Assembly: GCF_000382425.1 (NCBI RefSeq)
Contig: NZ_KB908291.1
Coordinates: 310,001 to 374,000, forward strand
Source: Empedobacter brevis NBRC 14943 = ATCC 43319
Lineage (GTDB): Bacteria > Bacteroidota > Bacteroidia > Flavobacteriales > Weeksellaceae
Direction: 5' to 3'
Length of the DNA stretch: 64,000 nucleotides
This document shows positions 23,627-48,216 of this stretch, piece by piece; position 1 is the stretch's first letter; the number at the start of each line of letters is the position of its first letter. Both the position numbers and the translations under genes were made by a program. A model generated the notes under the pieces. That model saw only the letters and a program-made list of their open reading frames with translations, was not told the DNA's origin and did not search any database.

Positions 23627-23648
23627 GCCCACGATTTAAATCGTGGGC
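23627..23648. repeat. Palindrome copy 1 (type A, CACGATTT half)
   Basis: A perfect 22-bp palindrome, GCCCACGATTT plus its reverse complement. It lies between the convergent luxR and hxlR genes and starts at the base after the luxR stop. A partial second half (GTTTAAATCGGG) follows. Confidence 0.9.
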
Positions 23649-29185: not shown

Positions 29186-30349
29186 CTAGAACCCGTTTTT
29201 CTTTTTGGCGGTCAGCACGGTATGTAGTTCAAATGCTGTTTCTGAGGTTTTATACGTCACGCTGAATGTTTTGATATCGTCGAAGTTTGTTTTGATAAGT
29301 TGTGTTTTCAAATCATTCAGGTCATGGTAGTTAAAATAAACTCTTCCGGCGACACCCGTTTTAAAATCAGACTGTTCCGGGCTGCCTGCTACAAAACTCA
29401 GGTACAGCAAACCATTGTCGTATAACAGGTTGTAAGCATCGGCAATCAGTTTGTTACTTTCTGTTTGCGACAAATAGGGCAGGCAAAATCCGCCTATAAT
29501 ACTGTCATATTTAGTATCAAGTGTATGTATATTCCGGCTGTCCATAACCGCAAAATGCGCTGTAGGGTTATTTCGCCTGGCAAGTTCAATCATATTGGGC
29601 GCAATGTCAATTCCGAAAATATCAAAGTCAGGACGTTGTGACAACAGGTATTTTGTAATGTTGCCGGGACCGCAGCCGATTTCCAGTAATTTTGCTTTTT
29701 GTTTGTGAACAGAAGTACAGATATAATCGTAAGTGTCGTTATACAAATCCATGTCCATGAATTTGTTTTGGTAGACTGAAGCAATTTTGTTCCAGGTATC
29801 AAATGTTTCTTTGTTTTTGTCCATTTGCCCACGATTTAAATCGTGGGTTAAAGATTCAATTTTATATTTCACGGCAGGTTGTCCGTCCAGCTCAATATCC
29901 TTTTCATATGCGAGCCCTATTTTTTCCAAAACATGTATAGAAGCAGTATTTTCTTTCATGGCGCGTCCCACAATTTGTTTCAGATGAAGCGTTTCAAAAC
30001 CATAAGCCAAACACGCCTGTGCGCTTTCAGTCGCATAACCCTTGTTCCATTCTTCCTCGAAAAAGCGGAATCCGATATCAGTTTCATTTTCCATTTCGTC
30101 ATATTTCAGTCCGCACCAGCCCACAAATTGCATCGATTCTTTTACCATAACAGCCCATCTTCCGTAACCGTTTCGTTTGTAATCCTCATAATCTTCAAGG
30201 AATTTACGGGTTTCCTTTATGCTTTCAAAAGCCACATTTCCCGTATATTTTATGACATTCGGATTCAGGTTTAGCCTATAAAAGTCTTCCGCATCATCCG
30301 GATGCAGTTCCCTCAAAAAAAGCCGGTTGGTTTCTGTAATTTTCTTCAT
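29186..30349 (-). CDS. GNAT acetyltransferase and SAM methyltransferase joined by a palindrome-encoded linker
   Basis: 387 residues in one open frame. Residues 1-166 are a complete RimJ/RimL-type GNAT domain (TNRLFLRELHPDDAEDF, FFEEEWNKGYATESAQ, ENTASIHVLEKIGL). Residues 176-387 are a complete class I methyltransferase (LEIGCGPGNITKYLL, FDIFGIDIAPNMIELA, IIGGFCLPYL) with its own ATG at 29824. The joining residues 168-174 (THDLNRG) are translated from palindrome copy 5. The likely history is two genes whose separating stop was lost when the palindrome arrived; the methyltransferase may still start at 29824. Substrates are unknown. An intended two-domain enzyme is less likely. Confidence 0.75.
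   Translation of the reverse strand: MKKITETNRLFLRELHPDDAEDFYRLNLNPNVIKYTGNVAFESIKETRKFLEDYEDYKRNGYGRWAVMVKESMQFVGWCGLKYDEMENETDIGFRFFEEEWNKGYATESAQACLAYGFETLHLKQIVGRAMKENTASIHVLEKIGLAYEKDIELDGQPAVKYKIESLTHDLNRGQMDKNKETFDTWNKIASVYQNKFMDMDLYNDTYDYICTSVHKQKAKLLEIGCGPGNITKYLLSQRPDFDIFGIDIAPNMIELARRNNPTAHFAVMDSRNIHTLDTKYDSIIGGFCLPYLSQTESNKLIADAYNLLYDNGLLYLSFVAGSPEQSDFKTGVAGRVYFNYHDLNDLKTQLIKTNFDDIKTFSVTYKTSETAFELHTVLTAKKKNGF
29827..29848. repeat. Palindrome copy 5, inside the GNAT-methyltransferase frame
   Basis: A type A palindrome with one terminal mismatch (GGGT end). It ends 2 bp before the methyltransferase ATG on the minus strand and is read in an open frame. Confidence 0.9.
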
Positions 30350-30400
30350 CTTAAATGGTTAGATAAATTTAATGCTGCTAATTTACCAAAACCTCTTTTA

Positions 30401-30441
30401 ACCCAAGGTTTAAACATTCGCCCACGGTTTAAACCGTGGGC
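30401..30441. repeat. Palindrome copy 6 (type B plus a partial copy), left flank of the transposase
   Basis: A perfect 22-bp palindrome GCCCACGGTTT plus complement at 30420-30441, preceded by the partial unit ACCCAAGGTTTAAAC (30401-30415). It lies 46 bp before the transposase ATG, in a divergent intergenic region. Confidence 0.9.
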
Positions 30442-30487
30442 TATGGTTAAATATTTTTTGCGTAAATTTGGGATAAGCCTGAAAATA

Positions 30488-30919
30488 ATGTCACATTCTT
30501 TTCATAAAATATTGATTCACGCCATCTGGTCGACAAAAAACCGGGCGGCCTTCATTTGGCCCGAAATAGAAGCAACGGTTTATCAGTTTATGAAAGAACA
30601 GTTCACGAATCAGGACTGTCTGCCACTCATTATCAACGGAATTCCCGACCACGTGCATTGTTTGTTTTTTCTGAACCCCGCGAAAAGCATTGCAGAAGTC
30701 ATTAAACAGGTAAAAGGAAGTACATCGCACTATATCAATCAGCAAAATTTTATGACTGAAAAATTTTCATGGCAAACAGGGTACGCAGCATTCTCGGTAA
30801 GTGAATCGGTGAAAAACAAAATATTTGAATACATCAAAAACCAGAAAGCACACCACAGAAAAATAACCTTTGAACAGGAATACCAGGATTTTTTAGCGTT
30901 TTATAAACCCACGATTTAA
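30488..30919 (+). CDS. Y1/HUH transposase, RAYT-like (REP-associated tyrosine transposase)
   Basis: 143 residues from the ATG at 30488. A longer frame from 30302 runs through palindrome copy 6 and is rejected. The Y1-transposase features are PDHVHCLF (HUH pair, near residues 57-60), SIAEVIKQVKGSTSHYIN, WQTGYAAFSVSES and the C-terminal Tyr helix YIKNQKAHH. There is no OrfB/TnpB gene beside it and no IS200-type subterminal hairpin pair, but palindromes of one family lie on each side. The last codons and stop (KPTI-stop) are read from a half palindrome. In proteobacteria such proteins cut and join REP palindromes; the same role here is inferred. Confidence 0.8.
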   Translation: MSHSFHKILIHAIWSTKNRAAFIWPEIEATVYQFMKEQFTNQDCLPLIINGIPDHVHCLFFLNPAKSIAEVIKQVKGSTSHYINQQNFMTEKFSWQTGYAAFSVSESVKNKIFEYIKNQKAHHRKITFEQEYQDFLAFYKPTI

Positions 30920-30989
30920 ATATTAACGGACAATTTTAGCCCATGGTTTAAATATCTTGCCCATGGTTTAAACCGTGGGCAAGATATTT
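30906..30989. repeat. Palindrome copy 7 cluster, right flank of the transposase
   Basis: Three units: a half palindrome CCCACGATTTAAAT that encodes the transposase stop (30908-30921), a half unit GCCCATGGTTTAAAT (30939-30953), and a full mixed B/C palindrome (30959-30980) with complementary arms AAATATCTT/AAGATATTT reaching 30989. The right arm overlaps the stop codon of the convergent deiminase gene. Confidence 0.88.
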
Positions 30990-33093: not shown

Positions 33094-33135
33094 TCGGGAG
33101 AAAAAGAAGTCCCGCAGATAAACGCAGAAATAAAG
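33094..33135 (+). repeat. Fragment of the 108-bp repeat family
   Basis: AAGAAGTCCCGCAGATAAACGC with adjoining ATTCGGGAGAAA matches the words of the 44.1-44.5 kb array. It is directly next to palindrome copy 8. Confidence 0.5.
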
Positions 33136-33136
33136 T

Positions 33137-33176
33137 CCCTCTTTAGCCCACGATTTAAATCGTGGGCTAAAGAGGG
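33137..33176. repeat. Palindrome copy 8 (type A with 9-nt arms)
   Basis: A perfect 40-bp palindrome: core at 33146-33167 with complementary arms CCCTCTTTA/TAAAGAGGG. Lies between the divergent AraC-GyrI and arsR genes. Confidence 0.9.
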
Positions 33177-43052: not shown

Positions 43053-43100
43053 GCCCACGGTTTAAACCTTTTCTTTTCGCCCATGGTTTAAACCATGGGC
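43053..43100. repeat. Palindrome copy 12 (partial plus full type C)
   Basis: Partial unit GCCCACGGTTTAAACC (43053-43068) followed by a perfect type C palindrome GCCCATGGTTT plus complement (43079-43100). The full copy encodes the last codons and stop of mscS. Confidence 0.9.
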
Positions 43101-43981
43101 TTTTGTTTCAATACATCAGAAAGAGATTCACCCCCTTTAATCCCAAAATCTAACGTTCGGATAGGGAACGGAATCATAATAGTATTGGCATCATAAGCCG
43201 ATTTAATATATTTAATCGCGTCACTTACCGCCTTAAGATACGTCGGTTGGTCAGTAGCCGTAATCCAGAAATAAATCGTATAATCAATAGAACTGTCGCC
43301 AAAAGCATTATAAAAAAGATGGATAGGTTCATTGGCATCTAACGTGCTGACCTTTTCAATAGCATTTTTGGTAATCGCCTCCACCTGTTCCAGATCCTCA
43401 CCGTACGAAATGCCCACCTGCAAATCAATCCGTCGCCGGCCCAGAGTCGTATAGTTAATCAGCGTATTCTGAAAAATTTCTTTATTAGGAATAATCACCA
43501 TTTGCCCCTGGAAAGTACGAATAATCGTATTCCGAATATTAATCATCATAACAACCCCCATCTGGTTATTACTTTGAATAATATCACCAACTTTCAAAGG
43601 CCGGTTAAAAGTCAGAAATATACCGGAAACAAAATTAGCCGCAATATCCTGAAAAGCAAACGCAAACCCCAAACTCAAAATACCCGCACCGGCAAGCAGA
43701 GAAGTAACCGCTTTTTGAAGATTAAGAATATTTAACGTAATAAAAAGAACAATACCGACATAAAAAACATACAAAACAGACGTAAACAAATTCGCCACAC
43801 TCGGATAACGGATTATTTTGCCCATCAGCTTTTCCGTCAGTTTTTTAAGATGAGCCGTCAGCCAGAGACCAATAACCAGCACAACAGCCGCAAGCAAAAT
43901 ATTAGGAAGCATCCCAATCAAATCCTGTAGCCAGAGATTCAGTTTATCCGTAACAATATCATAAGCCTTTTCAAAATCCAT
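43088..43981 (-). CDS. Small-conductance mechanosensitive channel (MscS family)
   Basis: 297 residues. Three transmembrane helices in the N-terminal 100 residues, then the pore-lining TM3 (AVTSLLAGAGILSLGFAFAF, QDIAANFVSGIF), the MscS beta domain (KVGDIIQSNNQMGVVMMINI, MVIIPNKEIFQNTLINYT) and the C-terminal alpha/beta domain. Opens under membrane tension to release osmolytes. The last three residues (PMV) and stop are read from palindrome copy 12, so the native C-terminus has probably been replaced or trimmed. Confidence 0.9.
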   Translation of the reverse strand: MDFEKAYDIVTDKLNLWLQDLIGMLPNILLAAVVLVIGLWLTAHLKKLTEKLMGKIIRYPSVANLFTSVLYVFYVGIVLFITLNILNLQKAVTSLLAGAGILSLGFAFAFQDIAANFVSGIFLTFNRPLKVGDIIQSNNQMGVVMMINIRNTIIRTFQGQMVIIPNKEIFQNTLINYTTLGRRRIDLQVGISYGEDLEQVEAITKNAIEKVSTLDANEPIHLFYNAFGDSSIDYTIYFWITATDQPTYLKAVSDAIKYIKSAYDANTIMIPFPIRTLDFGIKGGESLSDVLKQKPMV

Positions 43982-44093
43982 GAGTATCTGTTTAATTCAT
44001 AATTATTTATATAACTACAATATATGAAAATTATCACAATAAAATGAGGTACCCCGTAGCAAATCACGCAGATAAACACCGTGAAAAAAATAA

Positions 44094-44530
44094 GTCCCGC
44101 AGATTACGCAGATAAACGCAGACTTAATCGTTTCTGTGAACATCCGTGGAATCTGTAAGCAAAAAAACATCAGCGAGAATCAGTGGGAGAAAAATAAACC
44201 CCGCAGATTACGCAGATAAGCGCAGACTTAATCATTTCCGTGTACATCCGTGAAATCTGTAAGCAAAAAAACATCAGCGAAAATCCGCGACATCAGCGGG
44301 AGAAAATAAGTCCCGCAAATCACGCAGATAAGCACAGAAAAGACTGCTGAATATATCTGTAGAATCCGTTAGAAAATAAATCAGCGAGAATCAGCGCTAT
44401 CCGCGGGAGAAAAAGAAGTCCCGCAGATTACGCAGATAAGCGCAGACTTAATCATTTCCGTGTACATTCGTGAAATCTGTGAGAGAAAAAAAAAAAAAAT
44501 CAGCGAGAATCAGCGGCATCAGCGGGAGAA
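44094..44530 (+). repeat. Tandem array of four ~108-bp repeat units (family 2)
   Basis: Units start at 44094, 44199, 44310 and 44419 (GTCCCGCAGATTACGCAGAT or close; periods 105, 111 and 109) and end near TCAGCGGGAG. A partial unit precedes at about 44053. Within each unit the start and the end are imperfect inverted repeats (CCCGCAGATTACGCAGAT versus the complement of the TCAGCGAGAATCAGCGGG end), so each could fold on itself. The 657-bp gap 43982-44638 between mscS and the oxidoreductase gene holds nothing else that I can see. Single decayed members occur at 24.7, 33.1, 46.46 and 48.17 kb. Confidence 0.8.
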
Positions 44531-44638
44531 TATTTTCCGTAAACACCCGTAAAACATTTGAAAAAAAAGAGATATACAATTGATTATAAATCATTATTAA
44601 AAAATATTTTTTTATTTTTAATAGATAAAACCCGATAC

Positions 44639-46423: not shown

Positions 46424-46458
46424 GTGCTGTCACAAGGTCACGTAACAAGAGAAAAAAT

Positions 46459-46482
46459 AGCCCGCAAATCACGCAGATAAAC
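46459..46482 (+). repeat. Fragment of the 108-bp repeat family
   Basis: AGCCCGCAAATCACGCAGAT followed by AAACGC, matching the start of the array units. Next to palindrome copy 14. Confidence 0.5.
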
Positions 46483-46492
46483 GCAATCGTTA

Positions 46493-48164: not shown

Positions 48165-48216
48165 GTTTACATGAACATCAGCGAGAATCCGCGGGAGAGA
48201 AATAACAGCCCGCACA
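48165..48216 (+). repeat. Fragment of the 108-bp repeat family
   Basis: ACATCAGCGAGAATCCGCGGGAG corresponds to the unit end and CAGCCCGCACACG to a decayed start. It lies in the gap before the WYL regulator gene. Confidence 0.5.

Follow-up and report, generated by a model that had tools for sequence, protein, structure and literature searches.

The locus considered here raises the question of how a GNAT acetyltransferase gene and a methyltransferase gene came to be encoded as a single protein. Gene fusion is a main route to multidomain proteins, and the DNA event that underlies it is rarely visible. At this locus, the joint of the fusion is still recognisable as a repeat of a putatively mobile kind.

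The fusion is a single open reading frame of 387 codons without internal stops, located at 29186-30349 on the minus strand of the window (the whole stretch of 64,000 nucleotides that was analysed, from Empedobacter brevis). Pfam profiles identified a full-length Acetyltransf_3 domain at residues 9-146 (profile positions 1-137 of 138) and a full-length Methyltransf_25 domain at residues 222-313 of the fused ORF, confirming the preliminary description, which had placed two complete enzymes in one 387-codon frame. The GNAT part comprises residues 1-166 (29852-30349, minus strand), and the methyltransferase part (29186-29824, minus strand) retains its own ATG at 29822-29824. Between them lie the nine linker residues LTHDLNRGQ (29825-29851, minus strand), encoded by a palindrome with its core CCCACGATTTAAATCGTGGG at 29828-29847 and by the immediate flanks of that core. 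The codons across the joint are GAA TCT TTA ACC CAC GAT TTA AAT CGT GGG CAA ATG GAC, translated as ...IES-LTHDLNRGQ-MD..., and the core is thus read in frame, in agreement with the earlier assignment of THDLNRG to what was numbered palindrome copy 5. The methyltransferase ATG begins 3 nt past the 20-bp core, or 2 nt past it, as originally given, if the GGGC end is included. Frame translation likewise bore out the claim that on either strand the palindrome unit is open in two of three frames, reading (A/T)HDLNRG and PRFKSW, and supplies TAA in the third. A second in-frame example in the preliminary description was not counted; the in-gene copies at 33147 and 38974 sit in short ORFs (82-83 aa) that probably are not real genes.

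Relatives of the two genes indicated what the unfused state looks like. Among 320 genomes of the family, with the fused genome counted in both cases, the methyltransferase was present in 23 and the GNAT in 60; a scan of a species-genome collection yielded 55 methyltransferase loci, of which the last few are distant. Sequence was readable at 73 methyltransferase loci, a set that includes the fused locus and some loci duplicated between the two collections, and at every one but the fused locus an in-frame stop lay no more than 47 codons upstream with no GNAT between. An ATG stood at aligned residue 1 in 56 of the 73, close relatives among them; the same residue is internal in the fusion. The GNAT relatives, 62-76% identical in direct comparison, typically end within ~10 codons of residue 165, where the palindrome begins. 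No GNAT of this kind adjoined the methyltransferase at any of the relatives' loci in the 320 family genomes and the species-genome scan, and the two methyltransferase loci that do have a GNAT relative have it more than 1 kb away. Fused relatives were found in none of the 320 family genomes and at none of the 55 loci of the species-genome scan, and no plasmid record covered 80% of the query, leaving the fused gene known from one genome only. Separate genes are thus the rule, fusion is so far unique to this genome, and the palindrome occupies exactly the place where the GNAT stop is expected. As the preliminary description had anticipated, loci without the palindrome carry two separate genes with a stop between them. 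In another member of the family (L139, 1980-2040), the GNAT relative has lost its stop, and its open frame continues into a second GNAT with no palindrome there; simple loss of a stop is thus another route to read-through fusion at the end of this gene.

The palindrome at the joint is one copy of a small family of REP-like hairpins. With up to 3 mismatches allowed, the window contained 16 matches compared to 0.04 expected, and with up to 2 mismatches the genome (3.79 Mb in 28 contigs; 324 kb of sequence was read around the window) contained 31 copies compared to 0 for a reversed control, from which we conclude that the family is not a product of chance. Allowing up to 4 mismatches raised the number to 36. 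All 31 copies fell within positions 333,628-487,734 of contig 1, a single 154-kb stretch that begins at window position 23628 and has a local GC content of 0.40-0.44 against a background of ~0.32. The 13 sister genomes of the same genus had no copy at up to 1 mismatch, and they also lack the methyltransferase and the MscS-like channel gene that was tested. The simplest reading of these patterns is that pieces of the 154-kb stretch were acquired from a palindrome-bearing donor; the fusion may be older than that transfer. Within the core, pairing was kept through two-sided exchanges: the fifth pair changes from C-G to T-A and the seventh from G-C to A-T. Pairing at some positions of the outer flanks also exceeded that in shuffled controls. 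Both observations fit a hairpin whose structure is maintained. Another repeat family, built of units of ~104 nt (GCAGATTACGCAGATAAGCGCAGA, ATCAGCGAGAATCAGCGG), forms an array at window 44059-44533 and is scattered at 33095-33133, 46452-46487 and 48174-48205.

Immediately beside the fusion lies a gene for a Y1 (IS200-like) transposase of 143 aa (30488-30919, plus strand; Pfam Y1_Tnp) with the motifs DHVH, WQ and YIKNQKAHH. It scored 70.1 bits with the NCBIfam IS200 model (cut-off 55) and 33.7 bits with REP_Tyr_transpos, below the cut-off of 80, and it is the sole close copy in the genome. A longer ORF of 205 aa from 30302 was set aside as a probable mis-start, its homologues aligning from 30488. 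Palindromes surround the gene: a half and a full palindrome lie upstream (30396-30446), a half palindrome, CCCACGATTTAA, encodes the last residues and the stop of the transposase (KPTI*; 30908-30919, plus strand), and a further half and full palindrome (the latter at 30960-30979) lie downstream (30935-30985). In other genomes, homologues of the transposase at 51-60% identity have palindromes on their flanks that are related but differ in sequence, and at several of them these form arrays of alternating inverted units; the three motifs recur in the homologues at L174, L175, L177, L178 and L180. The long arrays that flank the homologues at L176, L177 and L178 consist of two different palindromes alternating at regular spacing, resembling BIMEs or REPINs. 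The homologue at L174 (1501-1887; 60% identity) contains an in-frame TGA before its end and is flanked by palindromes of yet another sequence, CCAACGATTAAAATCGTTGG. Across the genus g35, palindromes of this related type were present in 7 of 9 transposase-bearing genomes compared to 2 of 15 transposase-negative ones, an association with a Fisher p of ~0.003 that was worked by hand and ignores shared descent. Since the p value carries that limit and one transposase-negative g35 genome holds 13 palindrome copies, we regard a partnership of palindrome and transposase as likely only; the palindrome was probably spread by the neighbouring transposase.

The positions of the 36 copies relative to genes were far from uniform. 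Genes were called by ORF length, so the position of any single start or stop is somewhat uncertain. Only 2 of the 36 overlapped a gene by more than 12 nt, though the stretch is 82% coding. Eleven lay within 10 nt of a stop, compared to 4.3 expected for random placement in spacers (none of 2000 draws gave as many), and one lay within 10 nt of a start, compared to 4.0 expected. Copies therefore keep out of genes and are concentrated at stop codons. The frame containing TAA is used at the MscS-like channel gene (43088-43981, minus strand), where the palindrome at 43080-43099 supplies the last residues and the stop (KPMV*), and in the half copy that ends the transposase, while an open frame is used at the fusion; one repeat family has in one region had three outcomes, namely the stop of a channel gene, the stop of its own transposase and read-through between two enzymes. 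The copy at 33147-33166 lies between divergent AraC-type and ArsR-type regulator genes. A stop was supplied inside the core at one of the 11 stop-near copies, and gene-to-gene read-through occurred at 1 of the 36. The general proposal that insertion near a stop creates fusions thus describes a rare outcome, with 11 of 36 copies near stops.

Besides joining the two frames, the palindrome may influence where translation of the methyltransferase starts. As RNA, the palindrome core had a predicted folding energy of -11.4 kcal/mol. For the methyltransferase leader, taken from -30 to +20, the value in the fusion was -12.8 kcal/mol, the strongest of 51, and the leaders of 50 methyltransferase relatives had a median of -1.95 and a next strongest value of -7.1 kcal/mol. 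On this folding model, independent starts of the methyltransferase should be hindered by a hairpin that closes three bases ahead of the ATG, whereas ribosomes coming from the GNAT would open it and carry on in frame. Because the hairpin abuts that ATG, the enzyme is probably made mainly as the fusion, which is the expected main product, with free methyltransferase expected to be minor.

We consider the following origin of the fusion to be probable. A small family of REP-type hairpins, probably dependent on the neighbouring IS200-like (Y1, HuH) transposase, would have placed its copies chiefly in spacers and at gene ends, and one of these copies would have replaced or interrupted the end of the GNAT gene. 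With the TAA-bearing frame out of register, the palindrome would be translated as the linker, which would run in frame into the start of the methyltransferase gene. The same hairpin would occlude the start codon of the methyltransferase, which would be made chiefly as a C-terminal fusion to the GNAT; alternatively, translational coupling might operate, with GNAT ribosomes melting the hairpin. There was no empty site for comparison, as palindrome and methyltransferase are both missing in the 13 sister genomes, and a GNAT next to the methyltransferase without the palindrome was not found in any genome searched. Since recombination would give the same product, we treat insertion as a putative event. 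An empty site can be reconstructed by guesswork as a TAA-ATG junction that received the element CTTTAACCC...GGGC. This agrees with the sequence and yet is not claimed, the boundaries of the element being ambiguous.

Recombination would have joined a palindrome copy after the GNAT gene to one before the methyltransferase gene by deletion or exchange, with one palindrome left at the joint. That GNAT and methyltransferase are not neighbours in any relative searched would be accounted for in this way, as would a region that looks mosaic and acquired, and copies just past stops, of the kind needed on the GNAT side, are common. The methyltransferase side is harder to supply, since copies seldom lie within 10 nt of a start and a donor copy directly against the ATG would be unusual; the reciprocal product was also not seen. 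On balance, we think it rather unlikely that the fusion arose by such an exchange. A different concern is that the open frame is a genomic accident, with GNAT and methyltransferase made separately, or that it reflects a single-base assembly or sequencing error. With one base fewer in the TTT run before the palindrome, the joint would read GAA TCT TAA and the genes would be separate; the fusion therefore rests on one base of one assembly. The GNAT would then end as KIES, just where its relatives stop, and the methyltransferase family has its conserved start at the internal ATG. However, three consecutive T do not make a typical error site, and the same CTTTAA flank is found at other palindrome copies. 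Separate production is disfavoured by the hairpin beside the ATG, and internal initiation would not end the GNAT at its own stop. An accident or error of this kind is, in our estimation, improbable.

It is also conceivable that the fusion is an adaptive two-domain enzyme under selection for joint activity, as the completeness of both domains and the intact frame would allow. Against this, there was no second example in the 320 family genomes or among the 55 species-genome loci, and a shared pathway is made less likely by the lack of linkage between the two genes elsewhere. We hold this explanation to be very improbable. Placement of a hairpin copy at the GNAT end by the probably Y1-dependent family remains our preferred origin, and the locus is apparently a single instance of a gene fusion produced by mobile DNA. 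Of wider reach is a candidate repeat partner for a transposase subclass described without one. We suggest tentatively, as somewhat less likely than not, that each Bacteroidota transposase of subclass 1.2 might carry its own REP-like palindromes, which, open in two frames and with a stop in the third, would act as gene-end modules that terminate genes or join them in frame.

Several features of this system are shared with REPtrons (RAYT/TnpA_REP; PMC2817692, PMC3733652, PMC6006769), namely hairpins of 20-40 bp with many copies in spacers and an adjoining Y1 transposase flanked by palindrome copies. REPs lie near 3' ends, where they often provide stop codons, and REPs inside ORFs are already known (PMC3733652); copies near 3' ends, sometimes giving stop codons or lying inside ORFs, are common to both systems. 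In contrast to REPtrons, the palindrome described here showed no GT[AG]G foot, most listed copies having the feet TTAG, TTCG, CTTG, ATAG or TTAA; atypical hairpin feet also occur in subclass 2.6 and class 3 (PMC6006769). The REPtron transposase has the class 2 signature Y---NP, whereas the transposase here is of class 1.2 (YIKNQKxHH), and the copies here are confined to one 154-kb region. Because the GT[AG]G foot and a class 2 transposase are both missing, we call the set REP-like. Subclass 1.2 of TnpA_Y1 occurs in Cyanobacteria and Bacteroidetes, has the motifs DH[IV]H, WQ and YIKNQKEHH-like (Y---Q--HH) in a protein of ~148 aa, and is listed without REPs (PMC6006769), a lack that is a reported property of the subclass and not a defining motif. 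Our transposase agrees with it in its DHVH, WQ and YIKNQKAHH motifs, its short protein (143 aa), its single copy and its presence in Bacteroidota, and differs in that palindromes surround the gene, are dispersed beyond it and also surround several homologues.

Other mobile repeats are also translated within genes. Rickettsia palindromic elements (Ogata 2000, 2002; described in PMC10969869 and PMC2229807) are likewise palindromic repeats read in frame within a gene. They are ~100-150 bp long and lie inside single genes, whereas here a 20-bp core contributes to nine residues and joins two genes. In ORF fusions derived from MITEs (ERIC, YPAL, Correia; PMC2229807), a small mobile element is similarly translated in frame with its neighbour, but these mostly append an element-derived peptide to one ORF, whereas here the element is a linker between two enzymes. 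The less usual feature of the present locus, of which a limited literature search returned no case, is that two complete enzymes are linked almost entirely by a 20-bp repeat.
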